Both the position numbers and the translations under genes were made by a program. The notes under the pieces are model-generated. The model was given only the letters and a program-made list of their open reading frames with translations. It was not told where the DNA came from and ran no database searches. Shown one piece after another: positions 1-16,138 of a stretch of DNA of 64,000 nucleotides. The stretch lies in assembly GCA_028281285.1 (NCBI GenBank), contig JANQKF010000020.1:1-64000 (forward strand), in the 5' to 3' direction. The stretch comes from Cyclobacteriaceae bacterium. Lineage in GTDB: Bacteria; Bacteroidota; Bacteroidia; Cytophagales; Cyclobacteriaceae. The stretch's first letter is position 1. Each line of letters begins with the position of its first letter.

Positions 1-121
1 GATTGCGCTGGCCAGCATCATGGCAGGAGCTGATGGAGTAATCTATGAAACTCATGAGAAACCGGAGGAAGCCTATTCCGATGGTCAGCAAACCTTGAAT
101 TTTCCGAATCAGATAAGTTGA
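1..121 (+). CDS. C-terminal end of a DAHP synthase-like aldolase (partial)
   Basis: The reading frame is open from base 2 to the TGA at 119-121 and encodes about 39 residues. They contain ALASIMAGADGVIYETHEKP and then PEEAYSDGQQTL. This matches the end of class I DAHP synthases of the AroA/KDO8P-synthase-like family, where the last barrel strand carries AGADG, an acidic-His motif (here ETH) and the PEEAxSDGxQ(S/T)L tail. The enzyme condenses phosphoenolpyruvate with erythrose 4-phosphate at the start of the shikimate pathway. The rest of the gene is outside the window, so I cannot tell whether a chorismate mutase domain precedes it. The reading frame ends soon after the tail, so there is no C-terminal mutase. 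Confidence 0.72.
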   Translation, partial: IALASIMAGADGVIYETHEKPEEAYSDGQQTLNFPNQIS

Positions 122-173
122 TTGAGCGGCTCCAGAAGACCTTCGAATTAAGGACGAGTTTTTAACAAATTTC

Positions 174-200
174 AACTCTTTTGGAAAAATTGGTGTCTAA
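174..200 (+). promoter_or_regulatory. Possible ECF-type promoter
   Basis: An AAC at 174-176 is followed after 17 bases by TGTCTAA (194-200). The layout resembles the AAC / CGTCTAA pair upstream of the sigma-factor gene at 41962. It lies 66 bases before the lipoprotein start at 266. The match is short and low-complexity, so this is a weak call. Confidence 0.22.
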
Positions 201-265
201 GCGATTAAGGGCTTAAATGCAGCACCATTGTATTTAGCTTGTGAGTATTTTAAATTCACTCCTGC

Positions 266-1303
266 ATGTCAAAAACTTTCATTCCCTGTGCAAAACAAAC
301 GCTATTGTTTGGGCTTTTTCTGGTAATGTTTTCGTCCTGCGCCACTCTTTTCAATAGGAGTTACATGGATGTCGAGATCAAGGCAAATGAATCGCTGCAA
401 CTCGTATATAACAATGATACCTTATCGGCACAACCTGATCAAGGCATCCGAATTCCGGTTAAGAACCAGAAAGAACCACTTGCCCTAATTGCGATCGGGG
501 AGAGTGAAACCAAGGCCGTGGCTATTCGCTCCAAGAAGGGGAGCGTTTATTGGAGTAACTTCTTCACATTACCGATTTGGGGGGCTGGTTTCTTGGTGGA
601 TGAAATCAGTGGTAAGAAATTCAACTATCCGAACAAGGTCTTTATTGATTTCAAAAAACCAGGAAACTCCTACTACCCATATTTTCCAATGAAAGACGAA
701 CTCATCGCCAAAAAGAACCTCTTCGGGATTAACCCTTTTGGTTTTTTTCGGGAAGCCCATCCCATGGTAGAAGTGAGCTATGAACGGATTATGAACCGCC
801 AATTGTCCTCTCGATTCACCTATGGCCATTTGCTGGATGTAGACAATGAATTTTCACGTGATAGCGAAGGTTTCCAGGCATCGTTGGAACAGAAATACTA
901 TTATCGAAATGAAGATAGGACAAGACTCTATGTCAGCCTTGTATTGGAGCATTTGAATAAATCACATTTAGCTGAATTGACCTTAGAAAGCACCAGCGAC
1001 TTAATCAATGATCCATTTGGTAGCCAATTCACCCAACAAAGCAGGGTGAAAAAGGTGTTTACCTCCCTCACACCCAGGATCGGGTTTCAAACTTATCTGG
1101 GGGATGGATTCATACTTGAAGGATTTGCGGGGTTGGGGATGCGTCATCGTAAGGTTAGCCATCCCGATGTGGATCCAAGGTTTCGAGTTGTTGACGATGG
1201 AGGAGGTTGGTTATTTACGGACATTGATCTGTTATCCAACCGAGCTGAGAATCGACTTACTTCCAATTGGGATCTTGGCTTTCGACTAATTTGGGCTTTC
1301 TGA
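266..1303 (+). CDS. Predicted outer-membrane lipoprotein of unknown function
   Basis: 345 residues. The first 25 form a lipoprotein signal: a hydrophobic stretch (about 12-22) and a lipobox ending in Cys25 (MFSSC). Residues 26-140 are a soluble-looking beta-rich part. From about 165 the sequence alternates polar and hydrophobic residues in strand-length runs, and it ends in an aromatic residue (RLIWAF), as barrel-forming outer-membrane proteins do. I do not recognise a specific family; DUF3575-like barrels are a loose comparison only. The gene converges on the TonB-like gene with no spacer: its TGA ends at 1303 and the opposing stop begins at 1304. Confidence 0.6.
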   Translation: MSKTFIPCAKQTLLFGLFLVMFSSCATLFNRSYMDVEIKANESLQLVYNNDTLSAQPDQGIRIPVKNQKEPLALIAIGESETKAVAIRSKKGSVYWSNFFTLPIWGAGFLVDEISGKKFNYPNKVFIDFKKPGNSYYPYFPMKDELIAKKNLFGINPFGFFREAHPMVEVSYERIMNRQLSSRFTYGHLLDVDNEFSRDSEGFQASLEQKYYYRNEDRTRLYVSLVLEHLNKSHLAELTLESTSDLINDPFGSQFTQQSRVKKVFTSLTPRIGFQTYLGDGFILEGFAGLGMRHRKVSHPDVDPRFRVVDDGGGWLFTDIDLLSNRAENRLTSNWDLGFRLIWAF

Positions 1304-9209: not shown

Positions 9210-10646
9210 ATGAAAAGGCGTGCCGTCTATTTAATTAATACTGTATTGTTATTCACGGGATCACCTGTTTTTGCGTGGCAACAGCCCTCATCTTGTTCAG
9301 GTGTATATGCCGCAATGATTGAAAAGCTAGAAGCTAACTACATTGGCTTGCATCATTATCAGGATATGGGTAAGGGGACCGATTACGATCAACTCAAAAA
9401 GGAGTATGAAGGTCTGACCAAAGATATTGTGCTATCAGGTTGTACGGAGGTTTTGCAGGAGTTTCTCAACTTCTTCGAAGATGGACATTTGTTCGTGACA
9501 GAATTCCCCGATTTTTCTCAAAATCAGAAAGACTCGCTCAAAGATTATTCAAGAGGCATTATGACGTCTGATCAGGTTGAGAAACAGTTGAATTCACAAT
9601 CTTCGATCGAACTTACAGATGGGGACAAAATAATTGGTCGATACAGTGATCTGGATTCCGAAATTTCAGTAATAAAAAGGGGAGAGTTCTATGATGCTTT
9701 TATTGTCAAAACCAAGAAGGAAGGAACGCTGGAAGGTGAACTAAAGGCTCGGTTTAGATGGACAGGTGATGGTTATAAAATCAACTATCATACCTATGAC
9801 AGTACCTCTCGCTTTTTGACAGGAGATTTATACAAAGAAAATACCCTGCTAAAAATATCTGGAGGTGTGAGTTGGGTAAAATTGGATAGTCCCAATGAAA
9901 AAGAACTGGAAATGATTAATTGGGATGAGGGATTAAGGGCCCCTAAGATTATGATGATGGATGAAAATACGGTTCTGTTTTCTGTCCCTTCCTGGAATTT
10001 GAACTATCAGGACTTCGTTGCCCTTGTTAGAAAAAACAGAGACACCTTACTAAATGCAACGACCCTCATTTTGGATATTCGAGGGAATACAGGAGGTAAC
10101 GGGATCTACTTTCCCTTTTTCTATGTATTTGCTGATCGAAATATGCCTGGAGGACAGGGACACGTGCTAGCATCACCAGACAATGAGAAATACTTCAAAC
10201 GAAATCTTCAGTTTTCTAAGGATATCTATGGTCCTGTGGTTGAAGCCATTCAGAACAACATGGGTGAAATTGTCGATGGCCCGCAATACCCCGGAAGAAA
10301 ATTTAAACAGAGTAAAAGAAGCAAGGTAAAGAATGTAGCAATTCTTACTGATGGGGCATGTATGAGTGCTGCAGAATCCTTTATCCTTCATGCCAAAGGT
10401 GCCAGCACTAAAGTGAAAACTTTTGGTAGCCCAACTAGAGGTGTCATCGATTATACTTCGATTTTTATGGTGAGACTCGAATCCGGAGATCAGAAGATCA
10501 TGTTTGGGTACCCAACAGGAACGTTGAACAAGGACATCCCTTCAAATGGCTATAATAAAACGGGCATAGTCCCTGATGTGCCGATTTCTGAAGATGTAGA
10601 AGATAAGGTTGCCTTTATCATGGACTACTACCGGAAAGGTAAATGA
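9210..10646 (+). CDS. S41-family peptidase (exported)
   Basis: 478 residues with an N-terminal signal peptide (hydrophobic 8-22). The C-terminal half carries S41 features: LILDIRGNTGGNG (about 288-300) and the nucleophile segment LTDGACMSAAESF with Ser386, followed by a GSPTRG loop. No clear PDZ domain is visible, and the first 230 residues look like the cap region of Bacteroidetes S41 proteins. The usual CPP Lys spaced 25 residues after the Ser is not obvious, so the dyad may be arranged as in tricorn-type members. It starts 10 bases after the permease and may share its transcript, although substrates and partners are unknown. Confidence 0.78.
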   Translation: MKRRAVYLINTVLLFTGSPVFAWQQPSSCSGVYAAMIEKLEANYIGLHHYQDMGKGTDYDQLKKEYEGLTKDIVLSGCTEVLQEFLNFFEDGHLFVTEFPDFSQNQKDSLKDYSRGIMTSDQVEKQLNSQSSIELTDGDKIIGRYSDLDSEISVIKRGEFYDAFIVKTKKEGTLEGELKARFRWTGDGYKINYHTYDSTSRFLTGDLYKENTLLKISGGVSWVKLDSPNEKELEMINWDEGLRAPKIMMMDENTVLFSVPSWNLNYQDFVALVRKNRDTLLNATTLILDIRGNTGGNGIYFPFFYVFADRNMPGGQGHVLASPDNEKYFKRNLQFSKDIYGPVVEAIQNNMGEIVDGPQYPGRKFKQSKRSKVKNVAILTDGACMSAAESFILHAKGASTKVKTFGSPTRGVIDYTSIFMVRLESGDQKIMFGYPTGTLNKDIPSNGYNKTGIVPDVPISEDVEDKVAFIMDYYRKGK

Positions 10647-10676
10647 CATTATTGAACCAAATAATTTGTATTGACG

Positions 10677-10707
10677 TTTGCTAATTTCAAAAGGGATATT
10701 ACCTTTG
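10677..10707 (+). promoter_or_regulatory. Bacteroidetes-type promoter of the phhA-his leader
   Basis: TTTG at 10677-10680 and TACCTTTG at 10700-10707 are separated by exactly 19 bases, a full match to the Bacteroidetes primary-sigma consensus TTTG-N19-TAnnTTTG. Initiation is expected 5-7 bases beyond the -7 box, at or next to the ATG at 10713, so the leader ORF may be read from a leaderless mRNA. Confidence 0.75.
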
Positions 10708-10712
10708 ACGCA

Positions 10713-10784
10713 ATGATTAACAGAAACGCATATTACTACCACTATTACCACAACCCGATGCTTCGGAACGGTAGTGCTATGTGA
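10713..10784 (+). CDS. Tyr/His-rich leader peptide of a transcription attenuator
   Basis: A 23-codon ORF from ATG at 10713 to TGA at 10782-10784. The peptide begins MINRNAYYYHYYHN, with five Tyr (residues 7, 8, 9, 11, 12) and two His codons (10, 13), then continues PMLRNGSAM. It starts right after a strong promoter and is followed by mutually exclusive antiterminator and terminator stems upstream of phenylalanine hydroxylase. This is the classic arrangement of an amino-acid attenuator. The likely sensed amino acid is tyrosine, the product of the first gene. The two His codons may add histidine sensing for the downstream his genes. Function is inferred; the ORF and stems are seen directly. Confidence 0.72.
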   Translation: MINRNAYYYHYYHNPMLRNGSAM

Positions 10785-10829
10785 TCAGGAAAGAAATTAA
10801 AAACTGAAAATATAAGACCCGGTTCCGAA
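10762..10829 (+). promoter_or_regulatory. Antiterminator pairing of the phhA-his attenuator
   Basis: TTCGGAAC (10762-10769), inside the end of the leader ORF, is fully complementary to GTTCCGAA (10822-10829), which contains the 5' side of the terminator stem. GGT (10770-10772) can extend the pairing to ACC (10817-10819) past a 2-base bulge. A ribosome stalled at the Tyr codons (10731-10748) leaves this segment free. A ribosome reaching the stop codon covers it and lets the terminator form. Confidence 0.65.
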
Positions 10830-10845
10830 AGAGCCGGGTTTTTTT
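10817..10845 (+). terminator. Rho-independent terminator (attenuator) before phhA
   Basis: A 9-bp stem ACCCGGTTC / GAGCCGGGT with one G-U pair and loop CGAAA is followed by a T run to 10845. It sits 31 bases before the phenylalanine hydroxylase start, so it must be conditional if that gene is read from the upstream promoter. Confidence 0.8.
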
Positions 10846-10876
10846 ATGGATTACGAATAAGATAACTACCTATACA

Positions 10877-11611
10877 ATGAAACAGGAATACGATAAGTAC
10901 ACAGAAGAGGACCAGAAAGTCTGGAAGATCCTTTTTGACCGGCAAATGCCAAATCTGCCTAAGGCAGCAACTCAGGAGTTCATGAAAGGAATTGAGAGAG
11001 TCAACTTTAACGGTGAGGCCATTCCTAATTTCGAGGAAACGAATAAAGTTTTGAAAAGCCTGACAGGCTGGGAAATCTATGCGGTACCAGGAATCGTGGA
11101 GGATGATTTATTCTTTGACCTTATGGCGAATAGGAAATTCCCGGCTACCACGTGGGTAAGGAAGATGAGCGAACTCGACTATCTGGAAGAGCCGGACATG
11201 TTCCATGATGTGTTCGCCCACATTCCGTTATTGACCAATCAGGCGTTTGTGGATTTCCTTCAGGCGATCAGCAAATTTGGCCAGGAATGGATCGATGATG
11301 AGTGGGCAATCCATTTGCTCTCAAGAATCTATTGGTTCACGATTGAGTTTGGGTTGATAAGAGAACAAGGAGAGATCAAGATTTATGGTGCAGGTATTCT
11401 GTCATCCTCAGGAGAAACAAAATTCTCTTTGAGCGATGAACCTGAGCACTTTGAATTTGATGTGGATAAAATGCTAGACACTCCTTACAGAAAAGACATG
11501 ATGCAAGATAAGTACTTCATTATTGATTCCTACGAGCAATTGTACTCGTCAATTCCCGAGATCAAAGAGAAGATTGAATTGAGGTTGAAGGAGAAGGCGG
11601 CATTGGCTTAA
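10877..11611 (+). CDS. phhA: Phenylalanine 4-monooxygenase
   Basis: 244 residues, the size of bacterial single-domain aromatic amino acid hydroxylases that lack the eukaryotic ACT regulatory domain. The non-haem iron ligands are in place: His110 and His115 in FHDVFAH, and Glu157 in WFTIEFG. The pterin/substrate region (DEPEHFEFD) is also typical. The enzyme uses tetrahydrobiopterin and O2 to turn Phe into Tyr in the cytoplasm. It is the first structural gene after the Tyr-rich attenuator, which suggests expression rises when Tyr-tRNA runs short. hisH follows after 31 bases on the same strand. Tyrosine or tryptophan hydroxylase is unlikely in this setting. Confidence 0.93.
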   Translation: MKQEYDKYTEEDQKVWKILFDRQMPNLPKAATQEFMKGIERVNFNGEAIPNFEETNKVLKSLTGWEIYAVPGIVEDDLFFDLMANRKFPATTWVRKMSELDYLEEPDMFHDVFAHIPLLTNQAFVDFLQAISKFGQEWIDDEWAIHLLSRIYWFTIEFGLIREQGEIKIYGAGILSSSGETKFSLSDEPEHFEFDVDKMLDTPYRKDMMQDKYFIIDSYEQLYSSIPEIKEKIELRLKEKAALA

Positions 11612-11642: not shown

Positions 11643-12224
11643 ATGGATGTAGTCATCATAGACTATAATGCGGGGAATGTACGATCAGTGAGCTATGCGC
11701 TTCAACGGTTGGGTGTAGATCCAATTTTGAGTGCTGAAGCTGAGGTGATTCGAAAAGCAGATAAAGTGATCTTTCCCGGGGTGGGTGAGGCGAGCACAGC
11801 CATGAGGTTTTTGGAAGAAAGGAACCTTAAAGAGGTAATCAAGGAGCTTCAGCAACCGGTATTTGGGGTTTGTCTGGGGCTTCAATTACTCTGCACTCAT
11901 TCAGAGGAAAATGATACTGAAGGGTTAGATATATTTGATGTCAGGGTCAAAAGGTTTGAACCAAAGCTGAAGGTGCCTCAAATGGGATGGAATAGCCTGA
12001 AATCGATGAATTCACCGCTTTTCGATGGTATCGATGAAAACAGTCATGTCTACTTTGTGCATAGTTATTATGCCGAATTAAGTGACTATACAGTAGCTCG
12101 ATCGGATTACATAAACCCGTTTAGTGCTGCTCTGCAAAAGGATAATTTCTATGCGTTGCAGGCCCACCCTGAGAAGAGTGGAAAAGTTGGAGAACGGATA
12201 CTGGAAAATTTTCTGAAACTATGA
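11643..12224 (+). CDS. hisH: Imidazole glycerol phosphate synthase, glutaminase subunit
   Basis: 193 residues, usual HisH length. It is a class I glutamine amidotransferase with nucleophile Cys77 in FGVCLGLQLL and the His175/Glu177 pair in LQAHPEKSG. The N-terminus (IDYNAGNVRSVSYAL) and PQMGWN motif are HisH-specific. It releases ammonia from glutamine and passes it to HisF for imidazole ring closure in histidine synthesis. It lies between phhA and hisA. Instead of the tight spacing seen later in the operon, 128 bases with a dispersed inverted repeat separate it from hisA. Confidence 0.96.
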   Translation: MDVVIIDYNAGNVRSVSYALQRLGVDPILSAEAEVIRKADKVIFPGVGEASTAMRFLEERNLKEVIKELQQPVFGVCLGLQLLCTHSEENDTEGLDIFDVRVKRFEPKLKVPQMGWNSLKSMNSPLFDGIDENSHVYFVHSYYAELSDYTVARSDYINPFSAALQKDNFYALQAHPEKSGKVGERILENFLKL

Positions 12225-12352: not shown

Positions 12353-13072
12353 ATGAAAATAATTCCTGCGATAGATATTATTGACGGCAAGTGCGTAAGG
12401 CTCACTCAAGGAGACTATGCCCAAAAGAAAGAGTATGCATCCGATCCATTAGAGGTGGCCCAAAGGTTTGAAAAGGCCGGGCTTTCCCGATTGCATATTG
12501 TTGATCTTGATGGAGCCAAGTCCAGAAAAGTAGTGAATGCCGAAACGCTAAAAAGAGTGGCGGATAATACCAACTTAGCCATAGATTTTGGAGGCGGAAT
12601 AAAGTCAAATGAATCGCTGGAGCTAGTTTTGGCTTCAGGTGCAAACCAGGTGACGGCCGGAAGCATAGCGGCCAAAAACCCTGAGCTTGTCAAGCAGTGG
12701 ATCAACCAATATGGACCCGAAAAGATCATTCTGGGAGCGGATGTAAAGGAAGAGGAAATAGCCATTAACGGCTGGCAGGAAGGCTCTGGAATAAATTTGT
12801 TTAATTTTTTAGACCAATACATTAAACAAAATATTATTTACTGTATTTGTACTGACGTAAGTAGAGACGGATTACTCCAGGGACCATCTTTTCAATTGTA
12901 TCAAAGAATAATGGCGCGCTTTCCAACGCTAAAACTCATAGCAAGTGGCGGTGTATCCTCGATGGATGACTTGGTTGAACTTGAAAAAATTGGAGTATAT
13001 GGAGCCATTGTCGGAAAGGCTTATTATGAAGGAAGAGTTAGTTTGGATGAGTTAGCAGCAATAGATCAGTAA
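12353..13072 (+). CDS. hisA: Phosphoribosylformimino-5-aminoimidazole carboxamide ribotide isomerase
   Basis: 239 residues, a (beta/alpha)8 barrel with two half-barrel repeats. The first catalytic Asp is Asp8 in [14 protein letters not shown]; the second lies in [10 protein letters not shown]. Phosphate-binding Gly motifs are [10 protein letters not shown] and [11 protein letters not shown]. It carries out the Amadori rearrangement of ProFAR to PRFAR in histidine synthesis, just before HisHF. hisF starts one base after the stop with no real gap, so they are co-translated. The second Asp separates it from TrpF-like enzymes. Confidence 0.96.
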
Positions 13073-13073
13073 T

Positions 13074-13835
13074 ATGTTAACTAAGAGAATCATACCCTGC
13101 TTAGATATCAAAGATGGTCGGACCGTGAAGGGAGTGAACTTTGTCGGTTTACGGGATGCGGGTGATCCGGTGGAGCTGGCAGCACGTTATGCCAAGGAAG
13201 GAGCCGATGAATTGGTGTTTTTGGATATTACAGCGACAGTCGAAAAACGAAAGACATTGGTTGAACTGGTCAATCGCATTGCGGCCGAAATTAATATCCC
13301 CTTTACCGTAGGAGGAGGAATTTCAAGTAAGGAAGATGTCTCAGCCCTTTTGAATGCCGGTGCCGACAAGATTTCGATCAACTCGGCAGCAGTGAAACGA
13401 CCTGAACTGATAGATGAACTGGCCCTCGAATTTGGAAGTCAATGTGTGGTGGTGGCCATTGATTCACGATTGATTGAAGGCGAACATATTGTGCATGTTC
13501 GAGGAGGTAGAACCCCTACAGAACTTCGAACATTGTCCTGGTCGAAAGAAGTGGAAAGCCGAGGTGGAGGTGAGATTTTATTGACTTCAATGGACCATGA
13601 CGGGACTAAGTCTGGGTTTGCAAACGAATTAGTTGCTGAAATTTCTTCATCACTTTCAATACCTGTAATTGCGTCAGGAGGAGCAGGTACGATGGACCAC
13701 TTTGTAGATACATTTACCACAGGCAAAGCAGATGCGGCCCTGGCAGCAAGCATCTTCCATTTTAAGGAAATAGGAGTGCCGGAACTCAAGAAATACCTAA
13801 GAGAACACAATTTACCTATAAGAATTGAACGATGA
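13074..13835 (+). CDS. hisF: Imidazole glycerol phosphate synthase, cyclase subunit
   Basis: 253 residues, normal HisF length. Asp11 is in [15 protein letters not shown], and the second catalytic Asp is in [11 protein letters not shown]. Further hallmarks are [23 protein letters not shown] and [13 protein letters not shown]. With HisH it forms a two-subunit enzyme that channels ammonia through the barrel and makes IGP and AICAR from PRFAR. The 3' end overlaps hisIE by 4 bases (ATGA), a coupling typical of this operon. Confidence 0.97.
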
Positions 13836-14443
13836 GAGCATTGACTAATTCGAACGAAGTCAAATTTGATGATAAAGGACTGGTTCCGGCTATTGTTCAA
13901 GACAACTCGACCGGTAAAGTTTTAATGTTGGGCTATATGAATAGCGATTCGATAAAGAAGACGCAGGAATCCGGAAAGGTCACTTTCTTCAGTCGGAGTA
14001 AGCAGCGCCTGTGGACAAAAGGAGAGACCAGTGGAAATTTTCTTAATCTAAAAGAGCTATTGATTGATTGTGATCAGGATGCCGTGCTGGTCAAAGCAGT
14101 TCCCGAAGGCCCGACTTGTCACACGGGCACTGACACTTGTTTCAATGAGAAGAACGACTCAAATGTTTCATTTCTTGACCATCTGACCTCGGTAATCAAG
14201 GATCGGAAAGACAAACCAGTTGACGAGTCATATACTGCTCGTTTGTTTGCAAAAGGGCTCAATAAAATGGCCCAGAAGGTCGGAGAAGAAGCAGTCGAAT
14301 TGGTGATTGAGGCAAAGGACAACAACGATGAATTGTTTTTGAATGAGGCGGCCGATTTGCTCTTTCACTATATGATTCTGCTCGAAGCGAAAGGTTACTC
14401 GTTGACCGATATTGTCGAAGTATTGCAGCAACGACACCGATAA
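13832..14443 (+). CDS. hisIE: Bifunctional phosphoribosyl-AMP cyclohydrolase / phosphoribosyl-ATP pyrophosphatase
   Basis: 203 residues with two domains. The N-terminal HisI part (about 10-110) has MLGYMNSDS, the [16 protein letters not shown] motif and the zinc-binding cysteines in [20 protein letters not shown] and TCF. The C-terminal HisE part (about 115-203) has the acidic helical motif [14 protein letters not shown] followed by [14 protein letters not shown]. It hydrolyses PR-ATP to PR-AMP and opens the ring to ProFAR. hisG, hisD, hisC and hisB are not in this window, so the pathway is split between loci. Confidence 0.96.
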
Positions 14444-15226: not shown

Positions 15227-16138
15227 ATGCCCCAGCAAGCTGCCAAAACGATCATGATGGTCCGACCAAAACACTTTGGTTACGACCACGAATCTGCCAG
15301 TTCCAATGGTTTTCAAAAAGTCGATGGAGCCGAGAATGCTTTTCAAATTCAACAAGCTGCCGCTCAGGAATTTGACACTGCTGTGGAAGCCCTCAAAAGC
15401 CATGGAGTCGATGTTCGCGTAATCGAAGATACTTCTGGACCAATAAAGCCAAATGCTGTATTTCCGAACAACTGGGTGTCTTTTCACGGAGACCGAACTT
15501 TTCTTTACCCCATGATGGCGGTGAATCGAAGAGCCGAACGGAGATCGGATTTGCTGGATGAATTAGAAGATCAAGGCATTGATATTGGGGAGATTATTGA
15601 CTTCTCAGTGTTTGAAAAAGAGTCGAAATATTTGGAGAGTACCGGCAGCCTGATATTGGACTATGAGAACAAGCTGATGTATGCTTGTCGCTCTAACCGA
15701 ACGCATCCTGAGCTTATCGAGAAACTTTGTGAAATACTCGGGTTTGAAGCGGTGGTATTTGATGCTTACGACCGGGAAGGTTTGGAGATCTATCATACTA
15801 ATGTGATGATGTGTCTTGCCCAGCAATATGTCGTGATTTGTTTGGAGTCCATTCCAGAGGACCAACGACCTGAAGTGGAAGGTGCTTTGAAAAAATCCGG
15901 GCACGAAATTGTACCGATTACTTTCGATCAAATGTATTCTTTTGCCGGGAATATGTTAGAGGTTGAGAATGAAGCAGGGCAATCGATTCTGGTGATGTCT
16001 AAGGCAGCCATGAAAAGCCTTTCCCTGGATCAAAAGGAACGGCTTTCTCAATACTCGCAGTTACTATCGACCCCGATTCCTACCATCGAAAAATATGGAG
16101 GAGGCAGTATCCGCTGCATGATGTGCCGGCTTAACTAA
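15227..16138 (+). CDS. ctlX: Amidinotransferase-family citrulline hydrolase (CtlX-type)
   Basis: 303 residues of the guanidino-modifying enzyme fold. Characteristic segments are MVRPKHFGY near the N-terminus, the substrate loop IKPNAVFPNNWVSFHGD, the STGSLILDYEN region, the catalytic His region IYHTNVMMCL, and a C-terminal GGGSIRCMMCR whose Cys297 is the likely nucleophile. The pattern matches CtlX, which hydrolyses citrulline to ornithine, CO2 and ammonia, better than arginine deiminase or dimethylargininase. It follows the barrel protein by 14 bases and ends the operon-like run from phhA. Assignment within the superfamily is by motif similarity only. Confidence 0.8.
   Translation: MPQQAAKTIMMVRPKHFGYDHESASSNGFQKVDGAENAFQIQQAAAQEFDTAVEALKSHGVDVRVIEDTSGPIKPNAVFPNNWVSFHGDRTFLYPMMAVNRRAERRSDLLDELEDQGIDIGEIIDFSVFEKESKYLESTGSLILDYENKLMYACRSNRTHPELIEKLCEILGFEAVVFDAYDREGLEIYHTNVMMCLAQQYVVICLESIPEDQRPEVEGALKKSGHEIVPITFDQMYSFAGNMLEVENEAGQSILVMSKAAMKSLSLDQKERLSQYSQLLSTPIPTIEKYGGGSIRCMMCRLN

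Follow-up and report, generated by a model that had tools for sequence, protein, structure and literature searches.

The window that we analysed is a 64,000-nucleotide stretch of contig JANQKF010000020.1 from a Cyclobacteriaceae bacterium. On its forward strand it carries a phenylalanine 4-monooxygenase gene (phhA) followed by hisH, hisA, hisF and hisIE, identified from NCBIfam families, whose cut-offs were passed, and from Pfam. Upstream of phhA lies a leader with a predicted promoter, a short ORF and an intrinsic terminator (Table 1). A preliminary description had placed the promoter, the 23-codon ORF, the terminator and an 8-base alternative pairing here, and every coordinate that we checked was correct. 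The 8-base pairing is indeed perfect: TTCGGAAC (10762-10769) is the complement of GTTCCGAA (10822-10829), and the pairing extends on to 10788/10804.

Table 1. Features of the leader region and downstream genes in the window.
Feature	Position	Strand	Remarks
-33-type promoter element TTTG (predicted)	10677..10680	+	sequence, consensus only
-7-type promoter element TACCTTTG (Bacteroidota type, predicted)	10700..10707	+	predicted +1 = 10712
Leader ORF, 23 codons and TGA, ATG start, peptide MINRNAYYYHYYHNPMLRNGSAM (begins MINRNAYYYHYYHN)	10713..10784	+	kept in relatives
Regulatory codons Y Y Y H Y Y H (codons 7-13)	10731..10751	+	modelled stall at codons 8-10 abolishes terminator
Strand 1 (control codons)	10729..10740	+	pairable with strand 2 at 10770-10781, 11 pairs
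Strand 2, antiterminator 5' side	10763..10788	+	20 pairs with 10804-10828
Strand 3, antiterminator 3' side	10804..10828	+	overlaps terminator 5' arm
Intrinsic terminator	10816..10845	+	stem 10816-10825/10831-10840, T-run 10839-10845
phhA, phenylalanine 4-monooxygenase, first structural gene	10877..11611	+	NF008877 and TIGR01267 over cut-off; PF00351
hisH	11643..12224	+	TIGR01855 over cut-off
hisA	12353..13072	+	TIGR00007 over cut-off
hisF	13074..13835	+	TIGR00735 over cut-off
hisIE	13832..14443	+	NF002747 over cut-off

The transcription start is predicted one base 5' of the leader ATG because in Flavobacterium psychrophilum the TAnnTTTG box occupies -12 to -5, according to excerpts of a report on that species (PMC9723704). 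The leader mRNA would therefore be near-leaderless, and we add to the preliminary description that the ORF is probably translated from such an mRNA. The spacing recurs in the 63 phhA leaders that we collected: 34 have a TAnnTTTG box at most 40 nt upstream, and 22 of the 34 boxes end 4 or 5 nt short of the start codon.

The leader combines a run of codons for an amino acid of the operon with a terminator between the ORF and the first gene and with an antiterminator that excludes this terminator, since both structures use the terminator 5' arm. Its 184 nt fold better than shuffled sequences (z -3.43), with 2 of 200 shuffles equally good. Together, these parts very probably make up an attenuator of phhA-hisHAF-IE transcription that works through the translating ribosome and responds to charged tRNA-Tyr, and probably also to tRNA-His. 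Transcription would begin about one base before the leader ATG, giving a near-leaderless nascent mRNA. When tRNA-Tyr (or tRNA-His) is charged, the ribosome would pass YYYHYYH, reach the stop codon and cover strand 2. Strand 3 would then be free for strand 4, and transcription would end at 10845. Under starvation, a ribosome stalled in the Tyr/His run would mask strand 1, so that strands 2 and 3 could pair while strand 4 is still untranscribed. The terminator could then not form, phhA and the presumably co-transcribed his genes would be expressed, and PhhA would supply tyrosine from phenylalanine.

Computed folding agrees with this scheme for the leader in the window. With the ribosomal A-site at Y8, Y9 and H10, the terminator probability was 0.35, 0.08 and 0.03, respectively, and it was at least 0.958 at all other codons and without a ribosome. 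When footprints of 9-15 nt were assumed, the drop across codons 5-15 was confined to codons 7-11, and 2 of 300 shuffled linkers mimicked the dependence on ribosome position. The preliminary description had proposed folding the leader with and without a stalled ribosome; in this computation, its terminator was lost only at Tyr/His codons. Equilibrium folding is not a general proof of switching, however. Although it fits the leader in the window, only 8 of 45 leaders had a core codon at which the terminator probability of full-length RNA was below 0.5; most leaders would thus need a kinetic switch.

Because the equilibrium model works in only 8 of the 45 leaders, we modelled partly transcribed RNA in which the terminator 3' arm is still unmade. 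In all 45 leaders, strand 3 was more sequestered when the ribosome stood at the best core codon than when it stood at the stop. At the best core codon its mean sequestration was 0.70, versus 0.56 with shuffled linkers, and at the stop codon it was 0.17 versus 0.37. In these computations and in those on the leader of the window, a stall at the control codons would prevent the terminator and a ribosome at the stop codon would allow it. Pre-core codons sequestered strand 3 as much as the core in many leaders, so the test separates the core from the stop codon and not from earlier codons. Without a ribosome, sequestration averaged 0.46 in real and 0.46 in shuffled leaders (0.82 in the leader of the window). 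A protective 1:2 hairpin that keeps the system off by default is therefore unsupported as a general feature.

We determined how widespread such leaders are by surveying the regions upstream of phhA. A phhA match was present in 40 of the 59 genomes searched, including the own genome, and further phhA loci were taken from named genomes (the best 80 matches). Among relatives of the same genus, all 16 phhA upstream regions that were read have a Tyr/His-rich ORF followed by a terminator; locus L022, whose upstream region lies beyond the contig end, and genome G017, which had no phhA match, were excluded. Leader and terminator also occur in families other than the own one. The preliminary description had made its reading depend on conservation of the Tyr codons and stems among relatives, and the reading was not refuted.

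A fixed rule, which required an ORF of 10-50 codons with at least four Tyr or His codons in eight and a terminator within 130 nt, was positive for 47 of 109 phhA upstream regions (L022 dropped beforehand). The same rule alone accepted 3 of 2,799 control windows from the same loci and none of 545 shuffled upstream regions, in which blocks of two bases had been permuted. It likely missed leaders at L092, L145, L150, L256 and L259. In a later class-wide sample, a leader was found at 18 of 38 phhA loci. According to record titles, the leader-bearing loci include Roseivirga, Marivirga, Fulvivirga, Algoriphagus, Hymenobacter and Chitinophagales. By the fixed rule, none of the 13 phhA loci outside Bacteroidota (L154-L166) had a leader. 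Judging from these comparisons of sequence, the same kind of putative switch is widespread in Bacteroidota.

Twenty-two leaders were aligned for structural statistics. The terminator was paired in 98.6% of cells and showed 15 both-side changes, a number that none of 500 shuffles reached. The 20-pair antiterminator was paired in 81.2% of cells, versus at most 47.6% when the strands were slid against each other. Its both-side changes comprised 7 pairs and 20 cells, and 101 and 31 of 500 column shuffles, respectively, were as high. Strands 1 and 2 were paired in 84.3% of cells, versus at most 47.2% when slid. The covarying stems that the preliminary description had called for were thus found in part: the terminator covaries and the antiterminator is in register, but covariation of the antiterminator and of the 1:2 pairing is not clearly above shuffles. 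RNAalifold alone predicted only the terminator, as expected since the strands compete. Of 45 leaders, 49% had a 2:3 pairing whose plain duplex energy was better than shuffles at the 0.05 level (mean z -1.8), and 49% had such a 1:2 pairing. A nearly invariant ATATA lies just 5' of the terminator (window positions 10807-10814; columns 114-121 of alignment A2). It can pair with TATGT of strand 2, and its variation is too low to separate pairing from another role.

The pairing of strands 1 and 2 also bears on whether the ORF is read by ribosomes at all. Strand 1 overlaps the Tyr codons, as would be expected if the ORF were spurious, the Tyr codons were kept merely for the 1:2 pairing, and a constitutive partial terminator simply lowered expression. 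Yet Tyr runs are kept where the 1:2 pairing is no better than shuffles (e.g. L014-L016, L114, L137 and L148), and codon order varies among leaders while the residues remain Tyr or His. His content, moreover, tracks the content of the operon. We therefore regard a spurious ORF as very unlikely. The peptide itself likewise does not look like a protein or RiPP precursor: it has no NCBIfam or Pfam family match, and its tail is not kept, with an early stop in L006 and a one-base deletion in L011. In L011, the missing base follows the control codons and shifts the frame of the tail but leaves strand 2 intact as RNA, which indicates that the core and the tail are conserved for different reasons.

A further alternative is that a T-box, a riboswitch or a protein-bound antiterminator takes the place of the translating ribosome. 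The terminator, and nothing further, would fit such a system. No Rfam family reached its gathering score in the window or in ten other loci (eight from relatives, plus the DAHP synthase and hisG loci of the own genome). The ten weak matches at 10600-10900 include Thr_leader (21.9 bits versus a gathering score of 55) and Trp_leader (14.7 versus 41), and the T-box covariance model matched neither there nor elsewhere in the window. These results make the alternative extremely unlikely. They also speak against assigning the leader to a known Rfam RNA family, given that the best weak match, Thr_leader, reached 21.9 of 55 bits.

The metabolic setting of phhA is consistent with tyrosine control. No prephenate/arogenate dehydrogenase domain (PF02153, tyrA) was found in the own genome at E 0.001. 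This assembly is 98.17% complete in 40 contigs, and the control search was positive in 13 of 14 known genomes. With phhA present and tyrA not found, phhA is the only tyrosine route found in the own genome. The view in the preliminary description that the phhA product makes tyrosine is thereby strengthened in its biosynthetic aspect. In excerpts of one study, fitness data are used to argue for a biosynthetic role of bacterial phenylalanine hydroxylase in Dyella japonica and, alongside a dehydrogenase, in Echinicola vietnamensis (PMC7311316).

The Tyr codons of the leaders vary with the route by which tyrosine is made. Loci with leaders of at least four Tyr codons were in tyrA-less genomes in 42 of 51 cases, versus 18 of the 65 other loci (116 phhA loci, both samples). 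The first sample gave 29 of 37 versus 7 of 41 and the second 13 of 14 versus 11 of 24; with the own genus removed, the counts were 28 of 34 versus 18 of 65. The exceptions are the 9 of 51 Tyr-leader loci in tyrA-bearing genomes and the 18 of 65 leaderless or low-Tyr loci without tyrA. We scored tyrA as present at 30 bits, and 13 rows had matches of 20-42 bits. At the Pfam cut-off of 26.5 bits, two more Tyr-leader genomes became tyrA-bearing and the counts were 40 of 51 versus 18 of 65. The association stands at 26.5, 30 and 60 bits.

For these counts, the first sample left out L087 and L088 (contigs of L014 and L015) and the loci outside Bacteroidota. The second sample comprised 40 of 49 genomes, chosen at E 1e-30 and completeness 90; its omissions were three genomes already in the first set and G048, G272, G474, G490, G534 and G535. 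L243 and L266 were dropped from the joint counts as duplicates. No two of the 132 remaining rows have identical last 200 upstream bases, and many come from one genus. The tyrA state was scored for 116 of the 132 rows, and the downstream gene was known for 61 of the 63 leaders.

The 8-codon cores of the 63 phhA leaders contain 254 Tyr, 91 His and 10 Phe codons, a low Phe count that is partly built in because the rule picks cores by Tyr and His. A broader scan by eye that allowed Phe and Trp revealed no Phe-dominated leader of the same layout. The His codons are distributed with the his genes. Among 61 leaders, hisH lies downstream of 29 of the 31 with at least two His codons and of 2 of the 30 with fewer, and with the own genus removed the counts are 13 of 15 versus 1 of 29. 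A histidine input would rest on this correlation, in which leaders have His codons when his genes lie behind them and mostly lack them otherwise.

There is a substantial, though less than even, chance that the same attenuator responds to tyrosine alone, that its His codons arose by neutral drift (a single transition turns TAY into CAY) and that the his genes come under its control incidentally. Leaders with Tyr codons only share the same anatomy, H10 is one of three effective stall positions together with Y8 and Y9, and the independent His contrasts are few (1 when starred branches are counted, 4 when all are). Drift would not readily account for the hisH counts given above, which outside the own genus are 9 of 11 versus 1 of 15 in the first sample and 4 of 4 versus 0 of 14 in the second. 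Nor would it account for Algoriphagus-type leaders, which are dominated by His (e.g. TFVHHSYHH) in genomes that have tyrA where searched. On the phhA tree, starred branches gave four independent contrasts for tyrA (expected direction 0.8, opposite 0.3 on average) and one for hisH; in the first sample these numbers were five and two. The independent pairs lean the same way as the counts and are too few for significance, and the raw counts are not independent of descent. Taken together, the leader is most likely a conserved tyrosine-reading attenuator of phhA, with histidine also read where his genes follow. In tyrA-bearing relatives (L091, L097, L100, L104 and L110-L113), phhA and hisH are linked as well although no leader was detected, which suggests that their linkage is distinct from the Tyr/His leader.

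Leaders of this kind also precede other genes. A covariance model built from the 22 leaders had two significant matches in the own genome, the phhA leader (E 5.8e-25) and a leader before a DAHP synthase-chorismate mutase gene (E 4.0e-4). The latter, MRAQRRFYYFFYFSWRDKVGSVLA followed by a terminator, lies at G000:C9:364227-364361 (L168:1501-1635). Its ORF reads RFYYFFYFSW, with Phe, Tyr and one Trp codon. The hisG gene, which is on another contig than phhA and the his genes, lies behind its own His-rich leader-like ORF, MIDLVNTYSQNNAHHVHHIHHLS, with the run AHHVHHIHH (G000:C9; L081, minus strand, 903-832). This ORF starts 7 nt behind a TATCTTTG box, and no clear terminator with a T-run was seen by eye in this leader-like region. 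The contrast among codon runs within one genome, AHHVHHIHH before hisG and FYYFFYFSW before the DAHP synthase-chorismate mutase gene, would be in line with an attenuator at phhA.

Family-wide, 103 of 148 genomes had a covariance-model match at E 0.05 or better, many of them weak. Inspection by eye placed 15 of 29 newly found loci before phhA (Tyr, some His), 7 before an aminotransferase gene (Tyr, some Phe) and 6 before a DAHP synthase gene (Phe and Tyr); the remaining locus precedes another gene, and its leader ORF was not found. By BLAST, aminotransferase and tyrA genes follow the leaders of L209, L213 and L229. A single leader with seven Tyr codons (Tyr7) lies ahead of phhA-aminotransferase-tyrA in Fulvivirga, and a single Tyr5 leader lies ahead of aminotransferase-tyrA-phhA in L229. 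A Tyr leader ahead of tyrA is not the rule, since 11 of 40 tyrA stretches had a leader and 29 had none within the stretch. In 4 of the 11 (L209, L213, L223 and L229) the leader is directly ahead of aminotransferase-tyrA or phhA genes, and the leaders of the remaining 7 are some 1 kb farther upstream, before a gene.

Leader-peptide attenuation as a class is textbook knowledge. The classical attenuators of Proteobacteria (trpL, hisL and pheL) have a short residue-rich ORF, four alternative strands and a terminator before a biosynthetic operon. The leader in the window is like these systems (Rfam RF00513 and RF00506) in its ORF, its four-strand alternative pairing and its terminator before the operon. 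Unlike them, it is concerned with tyrosine (with histidine), has phhA as its first gene and a predicted near-leaderless start, and belongs to another phylum. Tyrosine control of biosynthesis is known mainly from protein repressors and T-boxes. The attenuation of tyrS in Enterococcus durans is presumably of the T-box type. We take the Bacteroid-trp RNA motif (RF01692) to be a Trp-codon leader, and its model was unmatched in the window and in the ten other loci scanned.

Excerpts of the literature place these systems as follows. The Bacteroid-trp motif is listed as a Bacteroidetes cis-regulatory motif by Weinberg et al. 2010 (PMC2864571). The E. durans report describes "tyrosine-dependent attenuation" (PMC3315439); this shares tyrosine-responsive transcription control with our leader, and differs in acting on a tRNA synthetase-like gene in a Firmicute. 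According to a 2010 paper, which itself then added Firmicutes, leader-peptide systems had been demonstrated in no phyla other than Proteobacteria and Actinobacteria (PMC2965389), and leader-like sORFs have been mentioned in Bacteroides (PMC7366714). The F. psychrophilum report presents strong indications of attenuation by leader peptides ahead of operons for amino-acid biosynthesis; in its excerpts no tyrosine leader or phhA is named, and the words "phenylalanine" and "histidine" are absent from its main text (PMC9723704). Among the matches listed in our search of the open-access literature (subscription papers and supplements being outside its scope), there was no description of a tyrosine leader or of phhA attenuation, in agreement with the preliminary description, which knew of no Tyr-leader control of a bacterial phhA. 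The class of mechanism is thus known, and as far as the literature searched goes, the tyrosine leader and its use on phhA would be new.

A broader reading, which we offer tentatively and at a little under even confidence, is that near-leaderless leader attenuators are widespread and interchangeable in Bacteroidota, and that their control codons are adjusted when operons are rearranged. The Tyr version would sit on the gene that completes tyrosine synthesis, namely phhA where tyrA was lost and, in some other genomes, aminotransferase-tyrA or both. Phe codons would be added before DAHP synthase genes and His codons when his genes join the phhA operon, and YYYHYYH in the window would be a true two-input Tyr/His switch.

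If true, a tyrosine-sensing leader on phenylalanine hydroxylase would show the biosynthetic role of this enzyme in tyrA-less lineages and give a direct readout of it. The natural series of leaders (Tyr only, Tyr and His, His-dominated, and Phe/Tyr) beside differing operons would provide a set for studying the evolution of control codons and for asking how one leader integrates two amino acids. It would also aid the annotation of short ORFs and regulation in a phylum with few described attenuators.

Two minor observations concern the surroundings of the his genes. In two relatives, L084 (positions 83-433, minus strand) and L022, a small-protein gene lies directly behind hisH, where the window has just a 128-nt gap between hisH and hisA. 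From its residues, by eye, the small protein reads as a four-helix bundle of the 23S rRNA insertion type. Slightly downstream of the his cluster, at 15227-16138, the window carries a gene that matches PF19420 (eukaryotic dimethylarginine dimethylhydrolase) at E 4.5e-92.
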